Part shown: positions 1 to 21,623 of the stretch, piece after piece | Numbering within the stretch: the first letter of the stretch is position 1 | How the letters are laid out: every line of letters starts with the position of its first letter | DNA from: Archangium violaceum | GTDB lineage: Bacteria > Myxococcota > Myxococcia > Myxococcales > Myxococcaceae | Assembly: GCF_016887565.1 (NCBI RefSeq) | Contig: NZ_CP069396.1 | Coordinates: forward strand, 3,747,001 to 3,811,000 | DNA length: 64,000 bases | Direction: 5' to 3' | Notes under the pieces: generated by a model | What the model was told of the DNA's origin: nothing | Database searches by the model: none | The model's input: only the letters and a program-made list of their open reading frames with translations | Translations under genes and position numbers: made by a program

Positions 1-1569
1 ACGGGCGAGCAGTTCCTCCGGCCGCTGGCGCGCAACCCGCAGGACCTGGTCTTCGTCCAGACGCCGCGCGAGGTGATTGGCGCCTTCACCCGAGGCTACG
101 CCCGCGTTCTGGGCTCGCGGCCGGAGACGGGCTCGCTGTCTCCCGGACAGTCGAAGACCTTCGAGGTGGGCAAGTACGTGGTGGAGGTGCTGGTGGCCAC
201 CGCGTCCGCCTCGCCCGGGCCCGCGTATACCGCGAAGCTGGAAGGCCCCCAGGGTGACGTCCCTGCCCAGGCGTCCGGTGACAACGGCTGCCCGCCCGGC
301 ATCCGCTATTCGGGCGCGCCCAGACTGTGCCAGCCGCCGCACCGCCACTATCAGGTCTTCCGCTCGCCCAACTCGCCGGACCAGCGCAGCCAGTGGACGC
401 TGTCCCTGCCTCGGGGCTCGGGGCCTATCGATTACGGGCTCATCCTCCGTTACGACCTCGCGGCCTCGCTCGCCGTGCCGTCCACCGCGCGGGTGGGCGA
501 GCCGGTGCAGCTCGATGCGCGGCTGCTCTTCCGTGGAAAGACCTTCGATGATGAGTCCTTCTTCCAGGCGGACGGCTTCACGGCCGTGGCCACCCTCGAG
601 GGCCAGGAGGTACCCCTGCGCCACGCCGGAGGAGGGCGCTTCGTGGCGGACTGGACGCCTTCCCAGCTGTCGATGGATGGTGCCGCGACGCCCGTGCAGG
701 TGACGTTCCGTAACGCGTGGATGGAGCAGTCCGCGCGCCGCTCCGTGCAGGTGGAGGGCTTCATCGACTTCGCCCTGGTGCCGGAGCCGGCCTCGCTCGA
801 CTTCGGCGAGTGGCGGGGCGAGCGTCACGAGACGCGCCGGTGCTCCACGGTGGATCTGTCGCGTTCCACCAACGCGGGCCGCATCCCCATCACCTGCTCC
901 TCGGAGGGGAGTGTGGAGGGCGGAGTGCTCTCCTGTTCGCCCGTGGCGGGCTCGGAGGCGGACCTGGGCAATGGCCGCAAGGGACAGCCTCTCAAGTACG
1001 AGGTGTGCTTCGCCGCCGAGGGCTGCTGCGGCCAGTTGGCTCCGCCGGGGCTCGGGGTGCGCTTCGCCGCGACCCACCCGCACTATTCCGCGGCCGCCGT
1101 GCTCGTCCCGGCGCGCGCGAAGGTGGACGAGACGGGCTGGCTGCGCTGCTGGTGGCCCTGGCTCGCCCTGGCCGGAGGAATGCTCTTCTTCGGCTGGGTC
1201 GTCATGGGCTTCGTCCGGCCGAACAACTTCGACCCGGCGGCCAGCGTCTACGTGGCCGGCTCGGAGATGGGGCTCAAGCGCGCATCGGCGCTCGTGCTGA
1301 ACGAGACTCCCGGAGGCCGGCGCGGCTTCTACCGCAACGCCCGCATGTGCCTGAACGCGGGAGGTGACTTCGTCCGTGCTCCGCGTGCGGCCGTGCTTGT
1401 ACTCGAGGCGGGGCCCGGTGGCTCCACGCGCTTCGTCACCGCCGCGGGCCTCGAGCGCAAGGTGCAGAGGACCGGGAAGTGGGAGCCCGTGCCGGCCGAG
1501 GAGCTGGCCCTCGGGTACACGCCCAACGTGGTGTATCGAGTGGGGAGCCTCTACTTGAAGTGGAGCTAG
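1..1569 (+). CDS. vWA-type membrane protein, C-terminal part (N-terminus outside window)
   Basis: The frame is open from base 1, so the start lies upstream; 522 codons are visible and the Met at 73 is probably internal. The first ~45 residues (FLRPLARNPQDLVFVQTP, then a helix) resemble the end of a von Willebrand A domain. About 330 residues of beta-rich, probably extracytoplasmic sequence with several Cys follow, then one membrane segment near residues 382-405 and a ~115-residue tail, presumably cytoplasmic. It precedes the tubulin-like gene on the same strand, and vWA proteins are known neighbours of one FtsZ-like family, which supports the assignment. The vWA identity is an inference because the MIDAS motif is outside the window. 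Confidence 0.6.
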   Translation, partial: TGEQFLRPLARNPQDLVFVQTPREVIGAFTRGYARVLGSRPETGSLSPGQSKTFEVGKYVVEVLVATASASPGPAYTAKLEGPQGDVPAQASGDNGCPPGIRYSGAPRLCQPPHRHYQVFRSPNSPDQRSQWTLSLPRGSGPIDYGLILRYDLAASLAVPSTARVGEPVQLDARLLFRGKTFDDESFFQADGFTAVATLEGQEVPLRHAGGGRFVADWTPSQLSMDGAATPVQVTFRNAWMEQSARRSVQVEGFIDFALVPEPASLDFGEWRGERHETRRCSTVDLSRSTNAGRIPITCSSEGSVEGGVLSCSPVAGSEADLGNGRKGQPLKYEVCFAAEGCCGQLAPPGLGVRFAATHPHYSAAAVLVPARAKVDETGWLRCWWPWLALAGGMLFFGWVVMGFVRPNNFDPAASVYVAGSEMGLKRASALVLNETPGGRRGFYRNARMCLNAGGDFVRAPRAAVLVLEAGPGGSTRFVTAAGLERKVQRTGKWEPVPAEELALGYTPNVVYRVGSLYLKWS

Positions 1570-1582
1570 AGGGAATGCGGAA

Positions 1583-2047
1583 ATGAGATGGATTGCGCTA
1601 ACGATTGCCGTCGCGGTGGCCACTTCCGGGTGTGTCCATGCACAACGGCCGGAGCACCGAATCTACGTCATTTCCGAAGATGCTCAGGGGCTCGGCTCTG
1701 ATCTTGGCACTGGCGGCGCTGGTCTCCGTGACTGTGATGCGGAGCAGCATGCGTGTTTCAATAAATGCTGGAAATCCGATCCGTTGCCCTACCCTCACGA
1801 GAAGCGGGACGGATGGTTTTATGAGTACTGCACCAGGGAATGCCGCAAGCTGTACATGGAGTGCGAAAAGTCAAATGAGAAAAAAGCGAGTGAGTTGAAG
1901 TTCTCGCGTGTCGATGAAGCGATTGAATGGATCAGGAACCACAAGGCGGAAATAATGCTGGGGACGGTTGTCGTCATCGCTGGTGTTGCATTCATCGTCA
2001 CGACAGGTGGTTCTGGTGCGCTGATTCTGGCGCCTCTTGCCCTCTAA
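1583..2047 (+). CDS. Cys-rich putative lipoprotein, possible OME-type toxin or surface antigen
   Basis: 154 residues. An N-terminal hydrophobic stretch ends in ATSGC (Cys17), a plausible though not ideal lipobox. The rest carries six further Cys (51, 58, 62, 83, 87, 94) in a CFNKCW...CTREC...C pattern, a charged linker, and a hydrophobic C-terminus (about 124-154). The DNA is visibly more AT-rich than its neighbours and uses codons rare here (aaa, aat, tca), suggesting recent transfer. It lies 13 bp after the vWA gene and 12 bp before an equally AT-rich small gene. Lipoprotein toxins of the SitA type, transferred by outer-membrane exchange with an immunity gene downstream, have this layout in Myxococcus; this match is by layout only. 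Confidence 0.65.
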   Translation: MRWIALTIAVAVATSGCVHAQRPEHRIYVISEDAQGLGSDLGTGGAGLRDCDAEQHACFNKCWKSDPLPYPHEKRDGWFYEYCTRECRKLYMECEKSNEKKASELKFSRVDEAIEWIRNHKAEIMLGTVVVIAGVAFIVTTGGSGALILAPLAL

Positions 2048-2059
2048 CCTGACGCGCCT

Positions 2060-2437
2060 ATGACCTATAATTCAAACTTTGATGTCGATGCCGTGATGAA
2101 GACGCTTGGTTCCGTGAGCGATAAATATCCGAAGAACTCGCCTGAAGACGAGGCGCTCCGGATCGCCGCAGTAGCGTTGCTCTATGTCCGAGACATCCAG
2201 AAGCTGGATGAGTACCGCGATTATTTTCGGAGGTTCTTTACCTACAAGCCGGTGATCGCTTCTCAAACGTTCGCAACGAGAGAAGAAGCGGATGCATGGC
2301 TCGCCAGTGGTAAGGCCATGGACGGCGAGCTTGTCAGCATCGCTGGCCAGGGTTTCACCGCAACCCACCTCCCGAAAGGCTGGAAGTTCCTCCGAACGCC
2401 GCTTCCGGAAGAGTATGGGACCCCCGCAGGCGGATGA
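2060..2437 (+). CDS. hypothetical cytoplasmic protein, possible immunity partner of the preceding gene
   Basis: 125 residues, no signal peptide, membrane segment or recognised domain. It is rich in charged and aromatic residues, with an N-terminal helical half and a C-terminal half containing ATREEADAWL and GFTATHLPKGWKF. It starts 12 bp after the Cys-rich lipoprotein gene and shares its lower G+C, so the two probably arrived together. The order (exported lipoprotein, then small soluble protein) is that of toxin-immunity pairs, but nothing in the sequence proves the role. The pair separates the vWA gene from the tubulin-like gene. Confidence 0.6.
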   Translation: MTYNSNFDVDAVMKTLGSVSDKYPKNSPEDEALRIAAVALLYVRDIQKLDEYRDYFRRFFTYKPVIASQTFATREEADAWLASGKAMDGELVSIAGQGFTATHLPKGWKFLRTPLPEEYGTPAGG

Positions 2438-2535: not shown

Positions 2536-5500
2536 TTGGGGCTGCTCGCGACGGAGAAGTTCAACCCGACCTTGTTCGTGGGTCTCGGTGGTAACGGCGG
2601 GAAGATCGTCCAACTGCTCGCCGGCCGGTTGCGCCGTCATCCCAATTGGGAGCGCATCAAGTCGATGACCCACTTCGTGGCCATCGACACCAACAAGGAC
2701 GACCTGGACAAGCTCAAGGACGTCCCGGTGGAGAACCGCTTCCTCGTCTCCGCCTTCGACGCGCGCGCCTACATCGAGCGCAAGCGCGGCCAGCGCGAGC
2801 TCCAGGAGGATCCGCTCGTCACCCAGTGGGTCCCCTCCAGCTACCAGTTCCGCTCCACCCAGGGCGCCGGCGCCGGGCAGATCCGCATGGAGAGCCGCCT
2901 GCGCCTCTACTACAACCTCGAGGAGGACCGGCGCGGCATCCGCAAGGCCCTCCAGAAGCTGCTCGACGAGTCCACCCGCCGCGAGAACCCCTGGCGCGAC
3001 AACGAGAACCGCGTCGTCCGGGTGATGCTCTATGGCTCGGTGGCCGGCGGTACGGGCTCGGGTGGCTTCCTGCCCATGGCCTACCTGCTGCGCCGCATGG
3101 TGCTCGATGCGGGCTGGGGCCGGCCCAACGTGGTCGGCGTGCTCACCCTGCCCACCGCCTTCCTCGACAAGGTGAAGCCCCAGCTCCACCCGGACATCCT
3201 CGCCAACGGCTACGCCGCCCTGAAGGAGCTGGAGTACCTCAACCGCCAGCTCGACTACGCGGGCGGCGTGAGCGAGCTCGAGTTCCACTACGACCCGGGC
3301 ACCCAGGACCGCAGCCGCCAGACCGTCGCCGAGCGGCCCTTCACGCTCACCTATCTCATCGACCGGCCCGACCAGCTCTCCATCGAGAAGTACGAGAACG
3401 CGGTGGCCGACGCCTGCTACCTGCAGATCTTCTCGCCGCTGCTCGGCGCGCAGGCCGGTGAGTACGACAACTACGAGAAGCACCAGAAGAAGCTCGCCCT
3501 GGGCCACTTCTCCGTGCACTACGGCTCGTTCGGTACCGCGCTGCTGCAGCTGCCCCGCCGCGACCTCCTCAAGTACGCGGGCCTGCGCTACGTGGCGAGC
3601 GCCTTCCGGCAGTTCCTCTGCTTCGGCGCCGACCACCCGGACTTCCAGGTGCCCTACGGTGACCCCGCCTTCCAGCGGCTGGAGCCCAACGAGAAGAACC
3701 GCCGCATCGACGAGAAGTTCAAGGGCTACGTCGCCTTCCGTGCCGGCGAGGAGGAGCGCCGCGACGAGAAGGGCCAGTTCTACGGAATCCAGCAGCAGAT
3801 CGGGAAGGGCGGGAAGAACCTCGCCGAGGCCTTCCGCGAGAAGCTCGAGGCCATCTTCGGGCGGTTGGACGAGCAGATCGACATCCCCGACGTGGAGAAG
3901 CAGTCCATCAACCCGGGCAACCCGTCGCTGAGCCGCGCCATCGCCGTGCTCCGCAGGGCCAAGGACGAGTCGCGCGCCCGCGTGTGCGGTGAGTACCTGG
4001 AGGCCCAGCGCGGCGACGTGCGCACCGGCCGCTTCTTCGAATCCTTCTTCAAGGAGTACGAGGTCAACCCCATCTCCCAGCGGCTCTTCCTCATCCGCCT
4101 GCTGGAGCAGTCCTTCATCGTCCCCTTCAAGGACCCGGAGGAGGGGGCCTACCTCAAGGCCGATGGTTCTCCGCCCGACCTGGACAGCCCGGAGCTGCGC
4201 CAGGAGATCTCCCGGCTCGACGCGGAGATGGCGCGGCAGGCCAACCCCGGCTTCCTGCAGAGCCTCACGGACAGGGACAACAAGGCCTTCGCCACCGCCA
4301 AGCTGCGCTCCGTGGCCAAGGTGGAGAGCTGGGCCAACGAGTTTCGCGACGAGATCAAGCGCTTCTTCTGGAAGTCCTTCGAGAGCGAGCTGCGCAAGGA
4401 CGCCGAGGCCCGCCTGGAGTCCTTCCGCAAGGTGGCCCAGGTGGCCGACGAGCGCGCCCGTGACTCCGAGTCCCAGGCCGAGCGTTTCCGCAAGGACCCG
4501 GCCGCCGTGGACGCGGGCTCGGACGTGGCCCAGTACTACCTGGACGCCGAGGTGCTCCGCGATGACCGGCGCCGCGAGCGGCTGTGGAAGGAGTTCTACG
4601 CCCACAAGCTCGACAGCGACGCCAACTTCCGCGCGGCCGACATCTTCGACGCCGTCACCGAGGCCTTCACCCCGGTGAGAGACCCCAGCGGTCAGCTCCG
4701 CGCCCGCGATGCCAACGAGATCGTCCAGCACGTGCGCGGCAAGCTGGAGACCCAGGCCCTCCAGGTCTACGGCCGGGTCATGGAGGAGATGGGGCTCGAC
4801 CTGGCCACGGGGCTCGATCTGGAGCAGCGCTACGTCGCCCTGCACAAGGCTGGGAAGGATCTGGAGGAGCTGCGCCGCAAGGGCAAGCTGGAGGAGGAGC
4901 TGCGCGCCGTGTCCGCCACCGAGGTGCGCCGCGGCATCGAGGACCGGCTCAAGCGCCTGTCCGACGAGTGCGTGCTCCTGGCCCATGTCGACGCCACGCG
5001 CCGGGACGACCCCACGGTGACGCCCGCGGACGTCTTCTACGCCGGCCTGCACGACAAGTTCGCCAGTGACGAGGAGGGCTCGCTGTGGAGCATCCTCAAG
5101 GGGGTGGTGTCCGGCTCCAACCGCGTGACGGGCTGGGAGGAGCGGGACTCGCTGGTGCTCTACCGCGCGCTGCTCGGCGTGCCCGTGTACTGGTTCAAGA
5201 ACGTCCAGTCCGAGCTGTACGCCGGCTACAAGCGCGTGCGCGACGACAAGAACCGCAGCTACCCGCTGCACATCGAGGCGGCGTGGGAGTCCCAGCCGGG
5301 CCTGCCGGACCTGGACCCGGTGGAGCAGAAGCGGGCCGACGAGCGCCGCACCGCCGAGCGCGCCGCCCAGTCCACCCGCGAGGCCCGCGACTCCCGTCTG
5401 CGCGCCTTCACCCTGTGCGCCCTGTTCGGTGGCATCTCGCGCGACGAGGAGGGCTACCACTGGAGCTTCGCCGGCACGAAGAACAAGCTGGCCCCGGACC

Positions 5501-5760
5501 GCGCGCGTGCCTTCGAGGCCTTCGAGGCCCTCGATCCGGTGCTCCGCGAGGATCTGGAGAAGAACGCCCGTGACTCGTGGGTGAACGCGACGGCGGAGCG
5601 GCCCTCGCGCAACAAGCTGCTGGAGGAGGTGCAGGCCCACCAGCGCCGCCTCACCGAGGCCTATGCGCGCGCGGTCGCCGAGCAGAAGGACGCCGAGCGC
5701 CGCTTCATCCAGGACGAGCGCACCGTGGTGGAGGCACTCGCCGCCGAGCTGAGGAGCTAG
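2536..5760 (+). CDS. tubulin/FtsZ-like protein (TubulinLike family)
   Basis: 1074 residues, TTG start preceded by GGAGGGGGAG. Residues 13-24 (LFVGLGGNGGKI) form the first glycine-rich loop and residues 167-177 (GSVAGGTGSGG) match the tubulin/FtsZ signature that contacts nucleotide phosphates; GAGAGQ at 110-115 is another conserved loop. The N-terminal ~450 residues therefore look like a tubulin-type GTPase, followed by ~600 mostly helical, charged residues absent from FtsZ (about 380 residues long). The family resembles PF13809 and FtsZ-like families proposed to act with vWA proteins in membrane remodelling. It is one base from the next gene, so co-transcription is very likely. The nucleotide preference and polymerisation are not shown. 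Confidence 0.85.
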   Translation: MGLLATEKFNPTLFVGLGGNGGKIVQLLAGRLRRHPNWERIKSMTHFVAIDTNKDDLDKLKDVPVENRFLVSAFDARAYIERKRGQRELQEDPLVTQWVPSSYQFRSTQGAGAGQIRMESRLRLYYNLEEDRRGIRKALQKLLDESTRRENPWRDNENRVVRVMLYGSVAGGTGSGGFLPMAYLLRRMVLDAGWGRPNVVGVLTLPTAFLDKVKPQLHPDILANGYAALKELEYLNRQLDYAGGVSELEFHYDPGTQDRSRQTVAERPFTLTYLIDRPDQLSIEKYENAVADACYLQIFSPLLGAQAGEYDNYEKHQKKLALGHFSVHYGSFGTALLQLPRRDLLKYAGLRYVASAFRQFLCFGADHPDFQVPYGDPAFQRLEPNEKNRRIDEKFKGYVAFRAGEEERRDEKGQFYGIQQQIGKGGKNLAEAFREKLEAIFGRLDEQIDIPDVEKQSINPGNPSLSRAIAVLRRAKDESRARVCGEYLEAQRGDVRTGRFFESFFKEYEVNPISQRLFLIRLLEQSFIVPFKDPEEGAYLKADGSPPDLDSPELRQEISRLDAEMARQANPGFLQSLTDRDNKAFATAKLRSVAKVESWANEFRDEIKRFFWKSFESELRKDAEARLESFRKVAQVADERARDSESQAERFRKDPAAVDAGSDVAQYYLDAEVLRDDRRRERLWKEFYAHKLDSDANFRAADIFDAVTEAFTPVRDPSGQLRARDANEIVQHVRGKLETQALQVYGRVMEEMGLDLATGLDLEQRYVALHKAGKDLEELRRKGKLEEELRAVSATEVRRGIEDRLKRLSDECVLLAHVDATRRDDPTVTPADVFYAGLHDKFASDEEGSLWSILKGVVSGSNRVTGWEERDSLVLYRALLGVPVYWFKNVQSELYAGYKRVRDDKNRSYPLHIEAAWESQPGLPDLDPVEQKRADERRTAERAAQSTREARDSRLRAFTLCALFGGISRDEEGYHWSFAGTKNKLAPDRARAFEAFEALDPVLREDLEKNARDSWVNATAERPSRNKLLEEVQAHQRRLTEAYARAVAEQKDAERRFIQDERTVVEALAAELRS

Positions 5761-5761
5761 C

Positions 5762-8155
5762 TTGGACGCCGCCGTCTCGTACCCCACCGTCCTCCTCGGG
5801 CTGGGGCGCTTCGGCCACGAGGTCATCGGCCGCGCCCTCCAGTCCCTGGAGGCCTCTTCGCCGCTGCTGGGCGTGCTGCGCTGCGAGCCCTCGGGCGTGG
5901 CCGCGGGGCTCCGGCCCCTGTTGGAGGACCTGCTGCGCGCGGGCCGTGGCTCGGGCGAGCGGCGCGACCAGCGGCTGGATGTCATCGCCTTCGCCGCCGC
6001 GTTGCAGGGAGGAGACGAGGACCTGCTCACCGCGTGCGAGCAGGCCGCGCGTCTGCTCGCCGAGGGCTATGGCGCCATGTTCCCCCCGGACCGGCCCCCG
6101 GAGCAGCGCACCGCCACGTTGCACCTCGTGGTGCAGGTGCCGGCGCTGTCCAACCCCCGCGCGTCCGTGGCCCTCTCGCGGCTCGCCGCCCTGGAGAGCT
6201 GGGCCCGGGCCCGCCCCGTGTTCCCGCTGGTGGCTCGCATCTGGCTCGTGTCCCAGCAGACCGCCGCCGGCACCCTCACCTCCGAGGAGATGGTGTCCTC
6301 GTGCGCCTCCTTCGCGCTCGGCATGGTGGCCTCGGGGCTGCGCACCGAGGACGAGGTGTCCCGCCGCATGGCCCACCCGGCGCGCGACGAGGGGCTCGTG
6401 GGCTTCGTCTCGCTGGCCTCGGTGGAGCTGCCCGAGTCCCGCCTGCGTGCCTACGCCGCCGCCCGCGCCGCCTATGACGGACTGGGCGTGCTGGTGACGC
6501 GCGTGCAAGAGCCGGTGACGGACGCCACCCTGGCCATGGGGGCCGTCTCCGCGCTCCAACATGACCGCTGGCTCGCGCCCTTCGTCGAGGGCCAGGCCGC
6601 GCAGCTCTCCCGGCGCCTCGCCGCCGAGCTGTCCCGCTCCCCGTTGGACCTGCCGGCCGACATCCGCGTGGGGCCCCTCGATACTCCCGAGGAGATCCGC
6701 GCCAACCACTCCGGACTCTTCAAGCCGGCCTCGGTGGAGGCCGCGCCCACCACCGTGGACCAGGCCCGCACCGACGAGACCTTCCGCGCGCTCGACCGCG
6801 CCGAGGCCGAGGTGGCCGCCTCGGTGGAGCAGGGCATCCAGGCGGTGTTCGATGCCTCGCTCGGGCCCACCTCGGGCCTGTCCCAGCTCCCCGCCGTCGA
6901 GCAGGGGCTGAAGCGCGTCATCGCTCAGCTCCACGACGAGCAGGCCCAGGAGGAAGCGACCCTGCGGAAGTTGGACCCCTCCCAGCCTCCGGGTCCTCCT
7001 CCGGACCCGCACCGCGAGGAGCTGGAGCACGCCCTGCTGGAGTTGCCCTCGAAGCGGTTGGCGATGGCGGCCGCCGCCGCGCTCGCGCTGGCCGTGTTGC
7101 TGGGCGTCTCCTTCGGGACGCTGTCCCTCATGACTCCCGCCGTGGCTCCCGCGGGTGGCACGCCCTCGCTCCAGGTGACCGCGTCCACCGCTCCGGCCGC
7201 CACCGGCTTCGACTGGCGCGAGGCCCTGCCGTGGATCCTCGGGACGCTCGCCGCGCTGGGCGCCGGGGGCGGGTGGCTCTACTTCGTCGGCAACCACACC
7301 CGGAAGGAAGTGCGCCGCGTGCTGAAGCTCCGGCGCGATGCGCTGGAGTCGCTCGTCAGCCGCGGTGGGGGAGGGCGGCGCGCGAAGCAGGCGGAGCTGC
7401 AGCTCGTGGTGCGCCGCAAGCGTGCCCGCCGGGGGGCCATCCTCGCCCTGGAGAACGCCGTGGCCCGGCTGCAGGCCGTCCGCCGCGCGCTCCTGGAGGC
7501 GAGGGATCGCAAGCGCCAGGAGATTCAGGCCCTCGGGGTGACTCCCGCCGCCGAGGCCCGGTTGGATGACCTCGGGCCGCTGCTCGGCGCGGGGGGGTTG
7601 CTCCATGGCTCGCTCATGCCTCCGGAGGTCCTCAGCCGGTGGATCGCCGCCCGCCGTGAGATTTCCGAGGACCGTGTCTGGGCCGACCGTCTCCTCGAAG
7701 GCGCCTGGCCCGAGGGTGGATTGCTCGAGGACGTCCCGTGCGGCGACCCCGAGCGCGTCACCGAGCTGAGCCGCCGTCAGGTGCGGCCGCTCGCCGAGCG
7801 CAGCGTGCTGGATGACGCCGAGGGCGGCCAGCAGGCGGCGGACGTGCTGCGGGACTTCGGCTCGCGGATGGGGGCGATGCTCGCTCCGCCGTGCCAACCA
7901 CTGAACGCGCATGGGGATCCGGTGCTCGGCATCCGTCCCGGCGAGGGCTTCGTCATCGCTCCGTCGGCGGGGCGCGAGTCGCTCGACGCCGGGCTCCGGG
8001 ACGTGCCGACGAGGCTCCCCGTGCTCTGGTCTCCCTCGAAGGACGCACGTGTCATCTTCCTCCGCACCTGGGAGGGCCTCTTCGTGGAGGATGTCGTTCG
8101 AGGTGCTCGTTCCATGCCGCAGCCGGCCGTGGTGGCCCCGCGAGGTACGCGATGA
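5762..8155 (+). CDS. membrane protein with degenerate tubulin-like N-terminus
   Basis: 797 residues with a TTG start one base after the previous stop. Residues 8-18 (YPTVLLGLGRFG) match the first glycine loop of the upstream tubulin-like protein, but no GGTGSG box follows, so it may be a non-catalytic paralogue or partner. Hydrophobic segments at about 428-455 and 485-511 make a hairpin in the membrane, followed by an Arg/Lys-rich helical region (KLRRDALESL, VRRKRARRGAI) and a folded C-terminal part. The ATGA overlap with the next gene indicates translational coupling. I recognise no named family over the full length; the relation to tubulin rests on the loop, position and context. Confidence 0.8.
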   Translation: MDAAVSYPTVLLGLGRFGHEVIGRALQSLEASSPLLGVLRCEPSGVAAGLRPLLEDLLRAGRGSGERRDQRLDVIAFAAALQGGDEDLLTACEQAARLLAEGYGAMFPPDRPPEQRTATLHLVVQVPALSNPRASVALSRLAALESWARARPVFPLVARIWLVSQQTAAGTLTSEEMVSSCASFALGMVASGLRTEDEVSRRMAHPARDEGLVGFVSLASVELPESRLRAYAAARAAYDGLGVLVTRVQEPVTDATLAMGAVSALQHDRWLAPFVEGQAAQLSRRLAAELSRSPLDLPADIRVGPLDTPEEIRANHSGLFKPASVEAAPTTVDQARTDETFRALDRAEAEVAASVEQGIQAVFDASLGPTSGLSQLPAVEQGLKRVIAQLHDEQAQEEATLRKLDPSQPPGPPPDPHREELEHALLELPSKRLAMAAAAALALAVLLGVSFGTLSLMTPAVAPAGGTPSLQVTASTAPAATGFDWREALPWILGTLAALGAGGGWLYFVGNHTRKEVRRVLKLRRDALESLVSRGGGGRRAKQAELQLVVRRKRARRGAILALENAVARLQAVRRALLEARDRKRQEIQALGVTPAAEARLDDLGPLLGAGGLLHGSLMPPEVLSRWIAARREISEDRVWADRLLEGAWPEGGLLEDVPCGDPERVTELSRRQVRPLAERSVLDDAEGGQQAADVLRDFGSRMGAMLAPPCQPLNAHGDPVLGIRPGEGFVIAPSAGRESLDAGLRDVPTRLPVLWSPSKDARVIFLRTWEGLFVEDVVRGARSMPQPAVVAPRGTR

Positions 8156-10926
8156 CCTTGCAACTTCCCCATCCGGCCGTCCTGGCGACGATCGCCTATT
8201 TGATGGTGTGGGGCCTGGTGCTCATCACGCCCGTGTTTGCCTGGATGCTGGCGGCGCTGGTGGTGGGCCCCGGTCCCAACTCCCGCTGGCGCCGTGCCGC
8301 CCTTCCCGTGGGCAAGGGCGTCCTCTTCTCCCTGGCCCTGGTGCTCGTCACCCGGCTGGTGGAGGCCGCCAGCGCCTCCATGCATGACGGGCCGCTCGGG
8401 TGGCTCGCCGCGCTCGAGCAGGCGCTGACCCACGGTGCCACCGCGATGACGTGGTTCCCCGTGGACGCCGTCCTGCTGCTGGCGCTGCCCCATGCCGCCC
8501 TCTTCCTGCTCGCGGTGGCGGTGTTCGCGTTCCAGGAGGCCAACGTCAAGTTCGGCACGCCCTTCCGTGTGCCACTCGCGGATCCGCTGGCGCTGGTCCT
8601 GGTCGTGGTGCCGGTGCTGGCCCTCATCGCCGTGGATGGGGCGTGGCGGCAGGCACGGCCTCGCGCGCTGCTCGACGTGGCCGCCGTGCTGCCCATGCTG
8701 TGCATGGCGCTCGCGGTGTGGACGCGCGCCGAGCGCCTGGCGCCTCCTCCCGTGAAGGAAGAGGCTCCCCGGCCCCAGGTGCCCGCTCCCGTGCGCGCGG
8801 ATGTCCCGGCGCTCTGGAGGAAGTTGGGCGCCCTCGAGGCCAACGCGCGTCCGCTGCTCGCGACGCAAGGCGCGAGCAACGCGGATGCCGCTCCGGCCTG
8901 GAGCGCCGCCGCGTGGCGGGATGCGGGTGCCATCGGGGCTCCGCCCCGGGCGTTGGAGGAGATCGCCAGCGCCTGGGGCTCGCCCCAGCAGGGCTGGTTG
9001 GTGGGCGACCTGCCCGACCCGACGGAGCGCCACTTCCTCACCTCGTGTGTGCTGCTCGCGCTCCAACGCGAGGGCCTGCCGTGCCTCGTCATCAGCGATG
9101 AGCCGGAAGCCCTGCGCGACGCGGTGCTCGAGGCCATCTCGCGCAGTGGCTCGTGGCCCTCGGGGCCGTTGTTGGCCGGCGAGGCGGCGATGCGCGAGGC
9201 CTTCGCGGGCAACCGGATGCCGGCCGCCGTCTTCCTGGACGTGGAGCAGCTGTCCGCCGGGGGCATCCAGGCGCTCGCCGAGACGCGCGGAGGCTGTGGC
9301 CGCCTGTGGGCCCGCTCCGTGGGGCTGGTGCTGCTGTCGCGCGTGGACCGGGGCACGCCGCTCGCCTCCACGCATCGCATGTTCACCCTGCGGCGGCTGG
9401 AGCTGGCGCTGTCGGCGGCCGGAGCGCGGTGGAACGTGCTGGCCACGGGCGTGGGAGGCGCGGGCACGCGCGGACTGGTGGAGCAGATGTTCCCGGGCAT
9501 CTCCGTGCGCGAGGTGCCCTTCGCTCCGCGCGCCGCGGCCCCGGTGCGTGTCTGGCGCGTGGCCGAGGGCTTCCGGGCCCAGCCGGGCACGCCCTGGGTG
9601 CGCCGGGCCCTGGAGCCGGTGGTGGGGGCCAGGCTGCCCGCGGCGGTGGGAGACCCGGGTGGGACCTTCGACCTCAAGGCCGTGGACTTCTGGGGCGGCG
9701 AGCTGCGCTTCGTCCGCGACGTGTCCCTCTTCGGCGTGGCCTCGGTGGGCACGCTGGACGAGGCGTGGCTGGTGGCCGCGTACCGGGCGCTCCCGCACCG
9801 GGTGCCGTTGGCGGACGGACAGACCCACGACGCGCTGTGGGGCCTCGCGGACAACCCGGTGACGCGCTTCCTCACGCGGGATGGCAACCTGGATGGGCTG
9901 GCGCGCCACGGCATGCTGATGCCGCCGAGGGCGCTCGTGGGCTACCACAACGGGGCGCTGGCCACGGCCCACCTCAAGGCGGCGATGCAGGAGGGCACGC
10001 AGGACGTGGAGTCCCTGGCGGCCGTCTTCGGCCGCTCGCGCGTGGAGCAGGTGCTGGGGCCGAAGTTCCGTCCCGAGCGGCACGTGGTGCGTCTGGCCCA
10101 GGGCCGCGAGCCCGTGCGCAGTCCCGTCGTCCCGGCCGGTGTGGCCGAGGTCGTCAACCCGCTGCGGCGCACCGTCAGCGAGCAGGTGGTGCGCATCCTC
10201 GACGTGCACAGTGGCCAGCTCCTCACGGAGGTGGACCGGCTGCTGGTGGAGACGCGCTACTACCCGGGCCGGGTGTTCGCCGTGGGCGACGCGCGTTACG
10301 AGGTGCCCCTGCACTCGCTGGACACCAAGCGCAACGAGCTGCGCGTCAAGCCGGTGCCCAACGACAGGCCCCTCACGAAGCCGCAGCTGCGCATCCAGTT
10401 CGAGTCCGCCCATGTGGTGGAGTCCCCGCAGACGGTGCGCACGGGCCGGTGCGTGTACCAGGTGTGCACGCTGGACGCGACGGTGGTGGAGAGCGTCACC
10501 GGCTACTCGCAGGTGGGGCGGCCGGGCCGGGTGGACGTGGGGGCGGTGAGCTGCCGCTACCGCACCCGGGTGCGTGGCGTCTTCTTCCCCGCCGCCACCA
10601 CGCCGAACGTCCTCTTCCACCTGGCTCGCTCGGCGGACGGGGTGCTGGTGGCGCACCTGCTCTCCAACGACGAGGACATGGACGTGGTGCCGGTGGGGCC
10701 GGGCATGTTCCCGGAGGCCCCGGCCGGCATCGTGATCGTGGACCGGCACCTCCAGGGCATGGGCGTGGCCGAGGCGCTGGACCTGGCGCTCGTGGACGAC
10801 ACGTTCAAGTGGGTCCGGGCCATCCTGGCCAACTGCAAGTGCGCGAGCGGGTGTCCGGAGTGTACCCCCCAGGACGTGCTCGCGTCCGGGCCCGACAAAT
10901 CCGGCGTGCTCGGGCTGTTGGGATAG
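8152..10926 (+). CDS. membrane-anchored DUF1998 (MrfA-like) protein with inactive helicase core
   Basis: 924 residues; its ATG overlaps the previous stop (ATGA). About five membrane segments occupy residues 12-195. A domain from ~215 to ~480 is laid out like the first RecA domain of Mrf/Hrq1-type helicases, but the Walker A position has no GKT/GKS and the DEAH position reads LDVEQL, so ATP hydrolysis is unlikely. The C-terminal ~350 residues resemble DUF1998 and end in NCKCASGCPEC (Cys895, 897, 901, 904), the CxC-x3-CxxC zinc cluster spacing of MrfA. MrfA is a soluble DNA-repair helicase and DUF1998 also occurs in DrmB of DISARM; a membrane-tethered form without a motor is unusual. The function is unknown, with a role in the upstream tubulin-like assembly inferred. 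Confidence 0.8.
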   Translation: MTLQLPHPAVLATIAYLMVWGLVLITPVFAWMLAALVVGPGPNSRWRRAALPVGKGVLFSLALVLVTRLVEAASASMHDGPLGWLAALEQALTHGATAMTWFPVDAVLLLALPHAALFLLAVAVFAFQEANVKFGTPFRVPLADPLALVLVVVPVLALIAVDGAWRQARPRALLDVAAVLPMLCMALAVWTRAERLAPPPVKEEAPRPQVPAPVRADVPALWRKLGALEANARPLLATQGASNADAAPAWSAAAWRDAGAIGAPPRALEEIASAWGSPQQGWLVGDLPDPTERHFLTSCVLLALQREGLPCLVISDEPEALRDAVLEAISRSGSWPSGPLLAGEAAMREAFAGNRMPAAVFLDVEQLSAGGIQALAETRGGCGRLWARSVGLVLLSRVDRGTPLASTHRMFTLRRLELALSAAGARWNVLATGVGGAGTRGLVEQMFPGISVREVPFAPRAAAPVRVWRVAEGFRAQPGTPWVRRALEPVVGARLPAAVGDPGGTFDLKAVDFWGGELRFVRDVSLFGVASVGTLDEAWLVAAYRALPHRVPLADGQTHDALWGLADNPVTRFLTRDGNLDGLARHGMLMPPRALVGYHNGALATAHLKAAMQEGTQDVESLAAVFGRSRVEQVLGPKFRPERHVVRLAQGREPVRSPVVPAGVAEVVNPLRRTVSEQVVRILDVHSGQLLTEVDRLLVETRYYPGRVFAVGDARYEVPLHSLDTKRNELRVKPVPNDRPLTKPQLRIQFESAHVVESPQTVRTGRCVYQVCTLDATVVESVTGYSQVGRPGRVDVGAVSCRYRTRVRGVFFPAATTPNVLFHLARSADGVLVAHLLSNDEDMDVVPVGPGMFPEAPAGIVIVDRHLQGMGVAEALDLALVDDTFKWVRAILANCKCASGCPECTPQDVLASGPDKSGVLGLLG

Positions 10927-10968
10927 GCGGAGGCAATCGCCATGACGGGTGAGCGTAGGAGTGGTGAC

Positions 10969-12408
10969 ATGAACCTCCTCCAGCCGGGAACGCAGCTGGA
11001 TGGTCGCTACGAGGTGGTCCGGCTGCTCGGGCAGGGCGGCATGGCCGCCGTGTATCAGGTGCGCCACCTGGGGCTGCACAGCACACACGCACTGAAGGTC
11101 CTCAACGAGGATCTGGCCCGCAGCGATGACGTGCGCGGACGCTTCCTCGCCGAGGGCCGCATCCAGGCGAGCCTTCGCCACCCCCACATCGTCCAGGTGA
11201 CGGAGATCGTCACCACCCCGGTGGCGGGCCTGGTGATGGACTACATCGAGGGCCCCACGCTCAGTGACTTCTGCCGCGGCCAGGGGCTGGCGCCCAAGCT
11301 GCTCCTGGAAGTCTTCCTGCCCGTGCTGGATGCCATCGAGGAGGCCCACAAGCACAACGTCGTCCATCGCGACCTCAAGCCGGACAACATCATCATCGGC
11401 AAGGACAGCCGGGGCCGGCTCCAGCCCAAGGTGACGGACTTCGGCATCGCCAAGCTGCTGCAGGGAGAAGGCTCGGACGGCAAGGCGCGCACCCAGGCCG
11501 GGGCCCGCATGGGCACGCTGCTGTACATGAGCCCGGAGCAGATCCGCGGGGCCGCCGAGGTGGACGCGCGCACCGACATCTTCGCGCTGGGCGCCATCCT
11601 CTACGAGGCCGCCACCGGGCGCGTCGCCTTCCATGCGGAGAGCGAGTACGACACGATGAAGCGCATCGTGGAGGGCACCTATGAGCCTCCCGAGCGCGTC
11701 GTGGGGGGCCTGCCGCCCGTCATCGCTGGCTGCATCCGCAAGGCGCTGGCCGCGGACCCCGCCGAGCGCTTCCAGGACTGCGCCGCCTTCCGCGAGGCCC
11801 TGGAGAAGGCGCTCGATGCCAACGCCGAGGCTCCTCCGAAGCCCTCGCGCTCCTATGGGGTGACGCAGGTGGGAAGTGCTCCGTCCGCGCCCGATCCCGA
11901 GCCCGAGGCGGCCTTCGCTCCGACGGCGCTCTCCGGTCAGTTTCCACGGAACACCGCGCGCCTGCCACCCGCGCCGCCTCCGCCAGTCCCGGCGCCCCCA
12001 GTGCCCACGGCGCCTCCGGTGCGCGTGGAGCCCCCCGTCGTCACGGTTCCTCCCACGGCCACGGTGCGACCGGCGAGCCCCGCGCTCCCGGTGGTGGCGC
12101 CGCCTCGGGCGATGGACTCCGTGCGGCAGCAGCCCCGGCCGGGAGAGATCGCGCCCAGCACCACGACCTCGCCCGGCCTGGCCCTCGCGCTGAGCCTGTT
12201 CTGTTTCGCCGGGTTTGGGCAGATGTACAACGGGCAGGTGTTCAAGGGCCTGTGCGCCCTGGGCCTGACGATCTTCATGGCGGCGACGACGGGAGGGGGC
12301 TTTTGCGTCGCCTGGCCCCTCATGAACACCGTGTTCGCCATCGACGCGTACTCCATCGCGTCCAAGCGCCGGAAGGGTCGCTCGGTAGGTACCTGGGAGT
12401 TCTTCTAG
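10969..12408 (+). CDS. Ser/Thr protein kinase with C-terminal TM2-like membrane module
   Basis: 479 residues. I chose the ATG preceded by AGGAG at 7 bp, placing RYEVV 12 residues in; an ATG at 10942 with GGAGG is also possible. The Hanks kinase domain (about 13-285) is complete: GQGGMAAVY loop, Lys43 in ALKVL, HRDLKPDN with Asp135, DFG at 157-159, MSPEQIRG in the activation segment. A Pro-rich linker (about 290-390) leads to two hydrophobic segments with GFGQMYNGQVFKG, typical of TM2-type domains. Unlike usual bacterial kinases there is no extracytoplasmic sensor. It lies 42 bp after the DUF1998 gene on the same strand, so it may regulate that system. Confidence 0.9.
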   Translation: MNLLQPGTQLDGRYEVVRLLGQGGMAAVYQVRHLGLHSTHALKVLNEDLARSDDVRGRFLAEGRIQASLRHPHIVQVTEIVTTPVAGLVMDYIEGPTLSDFCRGQGLAPKLLLEVFLPVLDAIEEAHKHNVVHRDLKPDNIIIGKDSRGRLQPKVTDFGIAKLLQGEGSDGKARTQAGARMGTLLYMSPEQIRGAAEVDARTDIFALGAILYEAATGRVAFHAESEYDTMKRIVEGTYEPPERVVGGLPPVIAGCIRKALAADPAERFQDCAAFREALEKALDANAEAPPKPSRSYGVTQVGSAPSAPDPEPEAAFAPTALSGQFPRNTARLPPAPPPPVPAPPVPTAPPVRVEPPVVTVPPTATVRPASPALPVVAPPRAMDSVRQQPRPGEIAPSTTTSPGLALALSLFCFAGFGQMYNGQVFKGLCALGLTIFMAATTGGGFCVAWPLMNTVFAIDAYSIASKRRKGRSVGTWEFF

Positions 12409-12426: not shown

Positions 12427-14124
12427 ATGTTGAGCCCGGGGAACGTGGTCGAGCGCTATGAGGTGGAGCGCGAGCTGGGCGACGGCGGCATGGCGCGCGT
12501 GTACAAGGTGCGCCATGTGGCCCTGGGCAGTGTCCACGCCCTCAAGGTGCTCGACCCGGAGCTGGTGGGGAACGCGGAGCTGCGCGCCCGCTTCCTGGAC
12601 GAGGGCCGCATCCAGGCACGTCTGAAGCACCCGAACATCCTGGGCATCACGGACGTGGTCGCCGCCCCTGGCGTCGCGGGCCTGGTGATGGACTATCTGG
12701 AGGGCGAGTCGCTCGACCGGTACCTGGCTCGCATCCAGCAGCCCCCGACCGCGGACGAGGTGCGCGACATCTTCCTGCAGGTGCTGGAGGGCATGGGATT
12801 CGCCCACGAGCAGGGCGTCATCCACCGTGACCTCAAGCCCTCCAACATCTTCCTGGAGCAGGTGCGTGGCCGGCGGGTGGTGCGCATCCTGGACTTCGGC
12901 ATCGCGAAGGCCGCCAGTGACGAGCGCCGGCCGACGACGCGCACGGGCGCGCGCATGGGCACCCCGCAGTACATGAGCCCGGAGCAGATCCGCGGGGCCG
13001 AGACTGTCACCGTCCGCTCGGACATCTTCTCGCTCGGGGTCACCCTGTACGAGCTGGCCACCGCGCAGCCGTGCTTCCTGGGTGAGAGCGACTTCAACAT
13101 CATGGAGAAGATCGTCCGGGCCGAGTACGTGCCTCCACACGTGGCGTACCCGGGTCTCGAGCGCCAGCTCGCCGCGACGATCCTCCGGGCGATGGACCTG
13201 GACCCGGAGCGGCGCTTCGCCTCGTGCCGCGAGTTCGCCGCGGCGCTGGTGTCCGAGCCCCCGATCGAGCGGACCGAGGAGCCGGTCCCGGAGGCCCCAC
13301 CCGCGCCCCGGGTAGCGACGCCCGCCCCGGTCCCCGAGTCCCAGGCGGCGACGCTCTTCCAGATAGCGAAGAGCCAGCGGATTCCCAAACCGCGGGACGC
13401 CTCGGGCCCTGTCGAGGAAAGCCCGCGGGCGCCGGTCGCTCCCATCCAGCAGCCCGAGCCGGAACCGGCGCGGACGCCGGCCGCTCGCATTCCGGTGGTT
13501 CGGGAGGAGCCTCCCGTCGTTGTTGTTCAGGCCCCCGAGCCGGAACCGGCGCGGACGTCGGCCGCTCGTATCCCCGTTGTCCCTCAGGAGCCTCCCGCCG
13601 TTGCTGTCCAGGCACCCGAGCCGGAACCCGAGCCGGAACCCATGCCGCGGCCTGTGAGGCCGCCGGACGCTCGTATCCCGGTGGCCCGGCAGGTTCCTCC
13701 CGCGGTTGCCGTTCAGGCGCCCGCCCCGGAACCGAGGCGGGAGTCCTCGGCTCGCGTCGTGGCGGTCCGTGAGGCTCCGGTCCTCGCCGTCAAGGAGCGC
13801 ACGCCGGCTCCCATCGTCCAGAAGGAGCGCACCGTGCCGCCGGCACCGGCCCGTGAGCGCCCCGGACAGGCGAAGCCCGCGCCACCGGTGGATACCCAGC
13901 CACCTCAGGGGCGCAGGGCCTGGCGCTGGGTGCTGCTCTTCGCTCTCGGGGGACTGGCGACCATGTTCGGTTCGGGGCTCATCGGGATGCTGAGGGGGAA
14001 GGGAGAGCCGCCGAACCCGCCTGCTCAGAGGAGGACGGTAGGGGGTGCTCCGGTGCGGCAGCCCAGGGGCGCGCCAGCTACCCCGCCCCGCTCCACCGGG
14101 CGGGACGGCAGGGCCTCACCCTGA
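12427..14124 (+). CDS. membrane Ser/Thr protein kinase with Pro-rich repeat linker
   Basis: 565 residues, 18 bp after the preceding kinase and clearly its paralogue. The kinase domain (about 10-280) has GDGGMARVY, Lys40, HRDLKPSN with Asp135, DFG at 156-158 and MSPEQIRG, so it should be active. Residues ~330-480 are a Pro/Glu/Val-rich linker in which a ~35-residue unit (about ARIPVV..EPP..VQAPEPEP) recurs three to four times. One membrane helix follows (about 498-520, WVLLFALGGLATMFGSG), then a short Arg/Pro-rich tail. The kinase is therefore cytoplasmic on a flexible tether. Its substrate is unknown; the neighbouring cytoskeletal-like operon is a candidate by position. Confidence 0.9.
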   Translation: MLSPGNVVERYEVERELGDGGMARVYKVRHVALGSVHALKVLDPELVGNAELRARFLDEGRIQARLKHPNILGITDVVAAPGVAGLVMDYLEGESLDRYLARIQQPPTADEVRDIFLQVLEGMGFAHEQGVIHRDLKPSNIFLEQVRGRRVVRILDFGIAKAASDERRPTTRTGARMGTPQYMSPEQIRGAETVTVRSDIFSLGVTLYELATAQPCFLGESDFNIMEKIVRAEYVPPHVAYPGLERQLAATILRAMDLDPERRFASCREFAAALVSEPPIERTEEPVPEAPPAPRVATPAPVPESQAATLFQIAKSQRIPKPRDASGPVEESPRAPVAPIQQPEPEPARTPAARIPVVREEPPVVVVQAPEPEPARTSAARIPVVPQEPPAVAVQAPEPEPEPEPMPRPVRPPDARIPVARQVPPAVAVQAPAPEPRRESSARVVAVREAPVLAVKERTPAPIVQKERTVPPAPARERPGQAKPAPPVDTQPPQGRRAWRWVLLFALGGLATMFGSGLIGMLRGKGEPPNPPAQRRTVGGAPVRQPRGAPATPPRSTGRDGRASP

Positions 14125-17894: not shown

Positions 17895-18422
17895 ATGAGG
17901 CGCGAAGCGGAAGGGACGGTGGGGAGGGGCTCGCGCGCCCGGACCTGGCTGTTCGTCGCGCTGGGCGCGTGTGTGGGACTCGCCATCGGTATCGGTGGCT
18001 TCACCTTCACCTACGCGAAGGGCTACGCGTACCTCGCCAATGATCCCGCCGCCTGCGCCAACTGCCACGTCATGCGCGAGCAGTACGAGGGCTGGCAGAA
18101 GTCGAGCCACCATGCCGTGGCCACCTGCAATGACTGCCACACACCCTCGGGCCTGGTCGGCAAGTACGCGACCAAGGCGTTCAATGGCTTCTGGCACTCG
18201 TTCTATTTCACCACCGGCGACTTCCACGAGCCCATCCAGATCCGCCCGGGCAACCGGGAGGTGACGGAGCGGGCCTGCCGCAAGTGCCACGGCGACCTGG
18301 TGGAGACCCTCGAGGCCTCCCACGGTGCGCCAGAGACCTCATGCCTTCGCTGCCACAACTCGGTGGGCCACCCGGAAGGGCTCGGCCAGCCGGACGCGCG
18401 GGCTCAGGAGACCCGACCATGA
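17895..18422 (+). CDS. nrfH: cytochrome c nitrite reductase small subunit, tetrahaem quinol dehydrogenase
   Basis: 175 residues from the ATG after GGAGAAGG. One N-terminal membrane anchor (about 17-40) precedes four c-type haem motifs: CANCH (54-58), CNDCH (78-82), CRKCH (128-132), CLRCH (150-154). This is the NapC/NirT family layout at the length usual for NrfH. The protein takes electrons from the quinol pool and passes them to NrfA on the outer face of the membrane. Its stop overlaps the nrfA start (ATGA), the usual nrfHA arrangement. A further ATG-free extension to 17826 is open but has no ribosome site. Confidence 0.95.
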   Translation: MRREAEGTVGRGSRARTWLFVALGACVGLAIGIGGFTFTYAKGYAYLANDPAACANCHVMREQYEGWQKSSHHAVATCNDCHTPSGLVGKYATKAFNGFWHSFYFTTGDFHEPIQIRPGNREVTERACRKCHGDLVETLEASHGAPETSCLRCHNSVGHPEGLGQPDARAQETRP

Positions 18423-19843: not shown

Positions 19844-19845
19844 GC

Positions 19846-20484
19846 TCAGCCGGTGGCCTGTGCGGTGCTGGCGCCGCGCTCGGCGGCGGTGTGCAGGGCG
19901 GGCCAGAAGTGCTCCGCCATCCGCATGTAGCCCACGTCCGAGGGGTGGAAGCCGTCGGGCGAGAAGTAGTCGGGGCTGCGCGGCAGCTCCTCCCGGCTGG
20001 GGGTGTGGAGGTCCACGCCGATGAGGCCGTGGCGGGACACCACGCGCGCCACGGCCTCGTTGAAGGAGGCGATGCGCGCCGAGATGAGCTCGATGGGCAG
20101 GAAGTGGGTGGCCAGCCGCGCCACGGGCGCGAGCGACATGTCCGGCAGGTTGGCGAGCACCACCGGGGCGCCCGTGCCCGCCAGTCCGCGTGCGAGCTGC
20201 TCGAGGTTGGACTCGAACTGGTGGGGCTCCACGCCGCGCCACAGGTCGTTGATGCCCACCGCCAGCGTCACCACGTGGGGACGGGAGCGGCTGGCCTTGG
20301 GGAGCTGTCCGGAGAGGACGGTGGCGCTGGTGGCCCCGCTCACGGACAGGTTGAGCAGGCCCACGCCCGCGCGGACGCGGCGCAGCCGCTGGAAGAGGTG
20401 TTCCACGTAGCCGCCATGGCGCGCTCCCACTCCGACGCCGGAGGAGTCGCCCAGGGCCACGTATCTCAGGGAGAGTGCGCTCAT
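19846..20484 (-). CDS. SGNH/GDSL-type hydrolase
   Basis: 212 residues, start preceded by GGAGAG. The four SGNH blocks are in order: block I ALGDSSGVG (Ser about 14), block II glycine in NLSVSGAT, block III VGINDLW (Asn), and block V SPDGFHPSD with Asp and His three residues apart. It is predicted to be a cytoplasmic esterase, acyl-thioesterase or lysophospholipase; no signal peptide is seen. It is convergent with nrfA, with two bases between the stop codons, and divergent from the FabH-like gene. Confidence 0.9.
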   Translation of the reverse strand: MSALSLRYVALGDSSGVGVGARHGGYVEHLFQRLRRVRAGVGLLNLSVSGATSATVLSGQLPKASRSRPHVVTLAVGINDLWRGVEPHQFESNLEQLARGLAGTGAPVVLANLPDMSLAPVARLATHFLPIELISARIASFNEAVARVVSRHGLIGVDLHTPSREELPRSPDYFSPDGFHPSDVGYMRMAEHFWPALHTAAERGASTAQATG

Positions 20485-20633
20485 AGGTCGCTCTCCATAG
20501 CGGCCAGGAGCCGGCTTCGCAGCGGCGCCCGTCCTCCTCCCCGCCTGGCATGCGAGAGAGAGACCGCCTGGCGGCCCGGGTATGCTCTATTATCCCACCA
20601 TCTCACGATTCCTCCACGCCGCGAGCCGAGGCG

Positions 20634-21605: not shown

Positions 21606-21623
21606 GGCGGTGGCCTCGCGGTG

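Follow-up and report, generated by a model that had tools for sequence, protein, structure and literature searches.

A predicted membrane-anchored, motor-less derivative of MrfA-type helicases in the Tubulin_2 operon of Archangium and other myxobacteria

The helicases MrfA, YprA and SftH (structures 6znp, 6znq and 6zns; NCBIfam profile TIGR03817) share the domain order RecA1-RecA2-OB-CON-MZB, and in MrfA the canopy formed by the OB, CON and MZB (DUF1998) domains changes shape upon binding of single-stranded DNA (ssDNA) and helps to trap it (PMC12458937). Relatives of YprA are central in DISARM, Dpd and Druantia, and in DISARM the OB-CON-DUF1998 module is encoded by a separate gene, DrmB (PMC12458937); the DISARM DUF1998 domain has been described as a hinge, the 'Helicase Allosteric Relay', by which DrmA and DrmB transmit changes to each other (PMC9142583). 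Here we analyze a gene of Archangium violaceum (phylum Myxococcota; genome of 13.2 Mb in one contig) that lies in a stretch of 64,000 nucleotides (NZ_CP069396.1, positions 3,747,001-3,811,000; hereinafter, the window) and encodes a predicted membrane protein that very probably derives from this group of helicases, lacks the motor motifs, and is the third gene in a set headed by a tubulin-like GTPase of the Tubulin_2 family.

Operons around Tubulin_2 proteins have been described in other contexts. Those of FtsZl1 (Makarova and Koonin 2010) encode vWA proteins, kinases, a GTPase and OmpA proteins, and a role in membrane remodelling has been proposed for them (PMC2875224). The GTPase-centred conflict systems of Kaur et al. 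(2020), which are said to prevail in multicellular prokaryotes, include tubulin and vWA genes, and one of their themes combines a kinase, a PP2C phosphatase and a vWA protein (PMC7159879). The accessible text of neither paper names a helicase-derived member, 'MZB' and 'DUF1998' do not occur in that of the latter, and 'tubulin' and 'transmembrane' are absent from the main text of the 2025 YprA survey (PMC12458937). Our literature searches, with supplements and most subscription journals lying outside them, found no helicase-derived member of a Tubulin_2 operon and listed no experimental study of a Tubulin_2 GTPase. As far as searched, such a member is new; the supplementary FtsZl1 family tables (A1-A2, B1-B9) may include this family in unrecognised form.

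Descent from MrfA-type helicases

The open reading frame (ORF) at positions 8152-10926 is uninterrupted, and its start codon overlaps the stop codon of the preceding gene by 4 bp (ATGA). The features of the encoded protein, here termed the pseudohelicase, are as follows.

8152..10926, + strand: membrane-anchored pseudohelicase (predicted), 924 amino acids; PF09369 and profile comparison; family detected in 9 genomes out of 195 from the phylum
8170..8724, + strand: five merged hydrophobic membrane stretches, residues 7-191; Kyte-Doolittle scan
8917..9516, + strand: RecA1-like region, residues ~256-455, motor motifs lost; hhalign against 12 intact MrfA, with G120 in the profile
9004..9033, + strand: Walker A (motif I) slot, GDLPDPTERH against ATPTASGKSL, residues 285-294; profile alignment
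9235..9255, + strand: LDVEQLS, at the slot of TNPDMLH, residues 362-368; profile alignment
9337..9348, + strand: DEAH/DELH slot, SRVD, residues 396-399; profile alignment
10150..10641, + strand: OB fold and CON sheet, residues ~667-830, retained; invariant columns and fold match to MrfA 493-747 (model with pLDDT 51)
10642..10866, + strand: MZB (DUF1998) zinc domain, residues 831-905; PF09369, E = 1e-7
10834..10863, + strand: zinc cluster C895-x-C897-x3-C901-x2-C904; sequence

An earlier reading of this ORF, made from the letters alone (hereinafter, the sequence-only reading), had assigned to it a zinc domain of the DUF1998/MrfA type, and the Pfam search bears this out: PF09369 matches residues 831-905 with E = 1e-7 and 32.9 bits, against a cut-off of 24.2. 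The cysteine cluster that it had singled out, C895-x-C897-x3-C901-xx-C904, is present, and its spacing (CxCx3CxxC) is identical to that in the intact MrfA encoded elsewhere in the same genome (CACEDGCPAC, L057).

Homologues of the pseudohelicase were compared from Archangium, from a second genus of the same family (G109, 67-68% identity), from another class (G019, 29%) and from another family of the order (G120, 27%), and near copies with 88-89% identity in the best segment are encoded in two named records of Archangium species. The four cysteines are invariant across the seven sequences of the family alignment, with two extra residues between the cysteine pairs in G120, and the G019 homologue scores 23.3 bits with PF09369, just below the cut-off. 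Zinc, the binding of which is predicted from these residues, probably stabilizes the canopy.

The relation to MrfA extends well beyond the four cysteines. Twelve intact myxobacterial MrfA proteins, all with a GKS P-loop and a DE.H box, served as the comparison set for profile alignment with hhalign. The family profile that includes G120 aligned with the MrfA profile over 613 columns (score 154.9), spanning RecA1, part of RecA2, OB, CON and MZB, and without G120 the alignment covers 348 columns from RecA2 to MZB (score 100.6; family columns 549-912), that is, only residues from about 549 onward; G120 alone yields a score of 139.8 over 645 columns. In the controls, without and with G120, respectively, the reversed profile scored 13.5 and 19.7, and the best of 20 column shuffles scored 24.6 and 25.6. 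The profile of Tubulin_2 scored 18.6 and that of the partner protein encoded by the preceding gene 16.7. The region from RecA2 to MZB is thus tied to MrfA without G120, and the RecA1 region of the window protein is tied to it only via G120, which phmmer joins directly to G019 (G120 residues 416-994 with G019 residues 327-889).

Database searches point in the same direction. The G120 protein matches MrfA 6znp in a plain sequence search (phmmer, E = 7e-7) and TIGR03817 (DECH_helic) with E = 3e-19, and the window protein matches the latter profile with E = 0.0015 over residues 677-905. Searched alone against the Protein Data Bank (PDB) with phmmer, the window protein has MrfA (YprA) as its sole match up to E = 10, at E = 0.48 and in register over residues 683-909; for the family profiles, MrfA is the sole PDB match up to E = 1 (E = 0.0081 without G120 and 0.00031 with it). 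The structure comparison with MrfA advocated in the sequence-only reading was made with a low-confidence model of the C-terminal residues 641-924 (pLDDT 51), used for the fold search alone: among 350,542 chains, Foldseek found MrfA 6zns as the only match with E < 0.001 (7e-5; the next at 0.62). Foldseek weighs sequence together with shape, so this match is not independent of the alignments, and the root-mean-square deviation of 16 Å indicates that the global packing of the model is wrong. With VIA-align, the top three rows are MrfA (Z 6.2, 5.5 and 5.4; the first two place model residues 35-272 on MrfA 493-747), but the fourth is TrmU, a tRNA-modifying enzyme with no relation to MrfA, at Z 5.3 over 54 residues of the OB part. 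TrmU ties with the MrfA rows, as do others via the OB part, and we therefore gave this list no weight.

The motor motifs are lost. Motif I, ATPTASGKSL in MrfA, has become CTPPGSGRAA in G120 and PDLPGDTEDI in G019, and both G109 and the window protein show GDLPDPTERH, in accord with the earlier observation that Walker A is missing. It is broken in all nine genomes that carry the family; a family member with an intact motif I, which would have refuted the sequence-only reading, was not found. At the slots of motifs I and II, GDLPDPTER and LLSRVDRGTP are shared by the five further copies from Archangium. Motif II, VVIDELHTYRG in MrfA, is replaced by VAVSGLERYQG in G120, MVLCRPDRLQP in G019, VLLSQVDRGTP in G109 and VLLSRVDRGTP in the window protein (residues 393-403). 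Here the sequence-only reading needs correction: it had identified DVEQ as the remnant of the DEAH box, but window FLDVEQLS aligns with MrfA LTNPDMLH, and the slot of the DEAH-type box (DELH) holds SRVD in the window protein and SGLE in G120, as placed via the G120-bridged alignment. The slot of motif IV is a gap and those of motifs V and VI mismatch in the window protein, G109, G019 and G120, and RecA2 is shortened. Among the 142 columns that are invariant in MrfA, those retained by the window protein number 9 of the 59 in RecA1, 12 of the 44 in RecA2, 10 of the 22 in OB-CON and 10 of the 17 in MZB, which upholds the view that the motor was lost and the zinc domain kept. Judged by these residues, the motor is dead under either placement of the DEAH box, and the engine is lost with the canopy better preserved. 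G120 looks like an intermediate, its P-loop being still recognisable (GSGR vs ASGK).

At the N-terminus, a Kyte-Doolittle scan detects seven overlapping hydrophobic stretches within residues 7-191 that merge into five, the number of membrane segments previously estimated, and several such stretches occur in each of the four members scanned (the window protein, G109, G019 and G120). By hand inspection, positive charges are present in the loop that follows the first stretch (RWRR) and in that following the third, so that the soluble part would be cytoplasmic; the short loop before the last stretch (WRQARPR) is positive too, which contradicts this scheme. We infer a cytoplasmic location of the soluble part.

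Taken together, these comparisons make it very probable that the protein is a dead derivative of YprA/MrfA. It shares with MrfA, YprA and SftH the domain order and the cysteine spacing, and its best sequence, profile and fold matches are to them, but motifs I and II are broken, motifs IV, V and VI were not found, RecA2 is shortened, and, in place of a soluble protein, we find membrane stretches and a location in a Tubulin_2 operon; by descent it would belong to YprA/MrfA, without qualifying as an active helicase. Neither does it qualify as DrmB, with which it has in common a canopy module separate from an active motor. DrmB has a cysteine spacing of its own (C559, 565, 581 and 584; PMC9142583), the NCBIfam profile DrmB_fam does not match the window protein, and the neighbours are Tubulin_2, the partner gene and kinases, not DrmA. 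The same profile matches a genuine DrmB of this genome, located beside a DrmA (L070 4447-6402, E = 1.1e-134). The DISARM pair in question, DrmA-like and DrmB (L070 1373-6402; NF038325 and NF038324), includes a DrmA match slightly below the cut-off.

Occurrence in the Tubulin_2 operon and selection

The operon context, which the sequence-only reading of the ORF did not consider, is the strongest functional clue. Across 195 genomes of the phylum, the family was detected in 9 and Tubulin_2 in 11; all nine genomes with the family are among these 11, and none of the 184 others carries it (Fisher p = 6e-14 with genomes as the unit and 2e-6 with genera, uncorrected for shared descent). In all nine, Tubulin_2 and the pseudohelicase are on the same strand, 8.1-8.7 kb lie between the beginning of the former match and the end of the latter, and the family match contains no stop codon. 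Of the two remaining Tubulin_2 genomes, G057 has its gene on a contig of 3,567 bases with no visible neighbours; the other, G055, is considered below. The MZB domain itself is widespread, being found in 112 of the 195 genomes, so the link to Tubulin_2 concerns the pseudohelicase derivative and not the domain. We consider it very likely that the pseudohelicase works together with the Tubulin_2 set.

The other genes of the set are arranged as follows.

L017 4205-6232, upstream of the window: vWA and FHA protein; VWA, E = 6.5e-11
L017 6229-7305, upstream of the window: PP2C phosphatase; Pfam
1..1569, + strand: vWA protein, C-terminal part of a gene that starts upstream of the window (L017 9395-11569); PF13519 VWA_2, E = 0.0067, below cut-off; position matches the vWA gene of the relatives
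1583..2047, + strand: small operon ORF, no Pfam family above cut-off
2060..2437, + strand: small operon ORF, no Pfam family; weak DrmA trace in PADLOC, E = 0.013
2536..5760, + strand: Tubulin_2 / FtsZl1, 1074 amino acids, GTP-binding loop AGGTGSG at residue 171; PF13809, E = 4.4e-55
5762..8155, + strand: partner protein, 797 amino acids, with a membrane stretch; encoded between Tubulin_2 and the pseudohelicase; Pfam finds no family above cut-off
10942..12408, + strand: Ser/Thr protein kinase; PF00069, E = 1.8e-41
12427..14124, + strand: Ser/Thr protein kinase, hydrophobic stretch near the C-terminus (by eye); PF00069, E = 3.9e-49

G109, G019 and G120 have the same order, Tubulin_2 - partner - pseudohelicase. 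Partner homologues occupy the same place in G109 and G019, and the G120 gene, which has masked bases, matches at the start only (E = 2e-4). Between the PP2C and the second vWA gene, G109 (L056 8551-10770) and G019 (L015 476-2701) encode an uncharacterised protein; at the same place, Archangium has an open frame (L017 6816-9488) that was not called by the gene script.

Tubulin_2 has the same kinds of companions here as in the FtsZl1 operons, namely vWA proteins, kinases of the Ser/Thr type and membrane proteins specific to the lineage (PMC2875224), and the locus includes the GGTGSG loop and a vWA protein (L017 4205-6232), with a second vWA protein below the cut-off; the helicase-derived member sets it apart. 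A diverged P-loop GTPase or an OmpA protein, which are frequent in those operons but not universal, was not among the Pfam hits in a scan that covered part of the cluster. With the systems of Kaur et al., the locus shares tubulin and vWA genes and the theme of a kinase, PP2C and vWA (PMC7159879), and the Pfam hits for the scanned ORFs include neither GAP1-N2 nor its GTPase by name. PADLOC reported no hits for the window protein, Tubulin_2 or the partner; the kinases match many kinase models, which we took as generic.

Selection on the pseudohelicase was estimated with the Nei-Gojobori method (own script) in three comparisons between Archangium species. For the soluble part, dN/dS is 0.06-0.16, and low values also hold for the degenerate RecA1 (0.07-0.14). 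Such strong purifying selection indicates that this is not a decaying gene.

Proposed role and alternatives

Sequence, synteny and selection show that the protein stems from a superfamily 2 DNA helicase of the YprA/MrfA type in which the ATP motor was lost and membrane helices were added at the N-terminus, and that its gene came to occupy the third place of the Tubulin_2 set. Its most likely role is that of a membrane-anchored adaptor. The OB-CON-MZB canopy, which moves with the motor in MrfA and DrmB, would face the cytoplasm and might bind, or allosterically gate, the tubulin-like GTPase and the partner protein at the membrane, and the vWA-FHA protein, the kinases and the PP2C phosphatase could set the state of the pseudohelicase. 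A motor-less canopy beside a GTPase would most simply be an anchor or relay for that GTPase. As an overall explanation, we give even chances to a dead helicase acting as a membrane-anchored adaptor of the Tubulin_2 set; the specific mechanism of an adaptor or relay for the tubulin-like GTPase appears slightly less than evenly probable. The suggestion of the sequence-only reading that the protein may have a structural or sensing function at the membrane is a reasonable one.

Several observations weigh against the adaptor interpretation. Six of the nine genomes with the family belong to one genus, Archangium, and G055 encodes Tubulin_2 in a readable neighbourhood without the pseudohelicase, so the tubulin system can manage without it. 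Outside the phylum, the family was found by hmmsearch in none of ten Tubulin_2 neighbourhoods, five from other genomes and five from plasmids, with the neighbourhood in one of these genomes (G292) being cut off. The membrane part evolves fast (dN/dS of 0.51-0.56 between Archangium species), and constraint on the soluble domains is weaker when Archangium is compared with G109, at 0.28-0.44 (0.28-0.55 for all values). The alignment of RecA1 depends on G120, and the AlphaFold2 model of the whole protein, built from three sequences, had a pLDDT of 34 and was not used. Residual nucleic-acid binding by the pseudohelicase, finally, may persist.

The last of these leads to the possibility of a membrane-held sensor, in which the canopy would bind ssDNA or RNA at the inner membrane and trigger assembly of the tubulin-like protein, for example, upon entry of phage DNA. 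The canopy is the best-kept part of the pseudohelicase, and both its behaviour in MrfA, where ssDNA alters its shape and is trapped with its help, and the central place of YprA relatives in DISARM, Dpd and Druantia (PMC12458937) are compatible with such a role; a faint hint of defence comes from three Thermaceae plasmids, in which the BREX gene brxL follows a vWA - Tubulin_2 - hypothetical array. PADLOC, however, detected no defence family in the window protein, and in G120 it yielded no more than a trace of DruE (E = 0.016); no relation was detected between the third gene of the Thermus array and the partner of the myxobacteria. We regard the sensor as rather unlikely, and its fuller version, where the dead helicase reads nucleic acid at the inner membrane and a tubulin-like polymer then assembles under kinase and phosphatase control, as decidedly doubtful.

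Alternatively, the protein could be a scaffold only, a passive spacer that tethers the tubulin-like protein, the vWA proteins and the kinases to the membrane without switching and without a ligand. Loss of the motor and the presence of membrane helices fit this idea, and the cysteine cluster could be purely structural, but the purifying selection on the soluble domains, the degenerate RecA1 included, exceeds what a spacer would need, and we consider a mere scaffold unlikely. That the gene is a decaying remnant of an ordinary helicase, as the lost motor motifs might suggest, is highly improbable given the lack of internal stops in all nine genomes, the low dN/dS of the soluble part, the conserved place and the intact MrfA elsewhere in the same genome. 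Equally improbable is that a membrane protein unrelated to MrfA carries a zinc ribbon by chance: the weak single-sequence E-value for MrfA and the tie with TrmU in VIA-align would allow it, but it is contradicted by MrfA being the sole, in-register PDB match, by the controlled profile comparisons, by the intermediate G120 and by Foldseek.

The interest of the family lies in what it separates. Pseudoenzymes that keep the regulatory shell without the engine reveal what the shell alone does, and a canopy of the MrfA/DrmB kind, split from its motor and placed on the membrane beside a GTPase of the FtsZ/tubulin superfamily, is a natural experiment on the DUF1998/MZB domain and a candidate partner for that GTPase.

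Neighbouring genes and Tubulin_2 loci outside the phylum

The partner protein begins with YPTVLLGLGRFGHEVI, resembling the starts of Tubulin_2 proteins (NPTLFVGLGGNGGKIV). In a local hhalign comparison with tubulin, it scored 37.0 against at most 14.6 in 40 shuffles, over 23 columns only and with G292 in the profile; without G292, the score is 30.1 and the hhalign probability 1.9%. The partner may be a second tubulin-like protein that lacks the GTP loop, which we leave as a lead. In G292, Tubulin_2 and a partner-like gene stand before a gene for a membrane protein that is truncated by the contig end (L054 1-525) and might be another third-slot protein. The G292 partner was rejected as a relative: it is not detectably related once kept out of the profile, and its match at E = 2e-235 is circular, having been obtained with a profile that included it.

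No family member was found in plasmids by tblastn with the window protein, nor in viral contigs; tblastn of plasmids with the G120 protein retrieved six ordinary DEAD/DEAH helicases and nothing else. Weak Tubulin_2 matches were seen in G201 and G334, outside the ten neighbourhoods examined. A plasmid of Azospirillum ramasamyi (NZ_CP029832.1, L041) encodes, in this order, Tubulin_2, a partner-like gene, a membrane protein of 1118 amino acids (19545-22901) and, by eye, a vWA-like gene. The 1118-residue protein contains a stretch that looks RecA1-like by eye (RLIVLIDAHRFDP) and no zinc cysteines; given hhalign probabilities of 0.1-0.2% against the MrfA and family profiles, it was not counted as a member.

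The plasmids of Thermus, Meiothermus and Allomeiothermus (L039, L040 and L042) share the order vWA - tubulin-like - hypothetical - brxL, with an insertion sequence before brxL in one of them and helicase or methyltransferase genes nearby. Our literature search found no paper linking tubulin with bacterial BrxL.

In G055, which belongs to another myxobacterial family, Tubulin_2 precedes genes for a response-regulator/J-domain-like protein and a kinase, and a PP2C-like gene lies beyond these, as read from the sequence (L037). A kinase of the G109 operon (L016 9353-11800) has an Lcl_C domain at its C-terminus (PF07603, E = 3.3e-15); Pfam reported no such domain for either Archangium kinase. Further downstream in the window, positions 18284-19843 encode what we take to be a multihaem cytochrome with several CxxCH sites, presumably resembling those of nitrite reductase systems.

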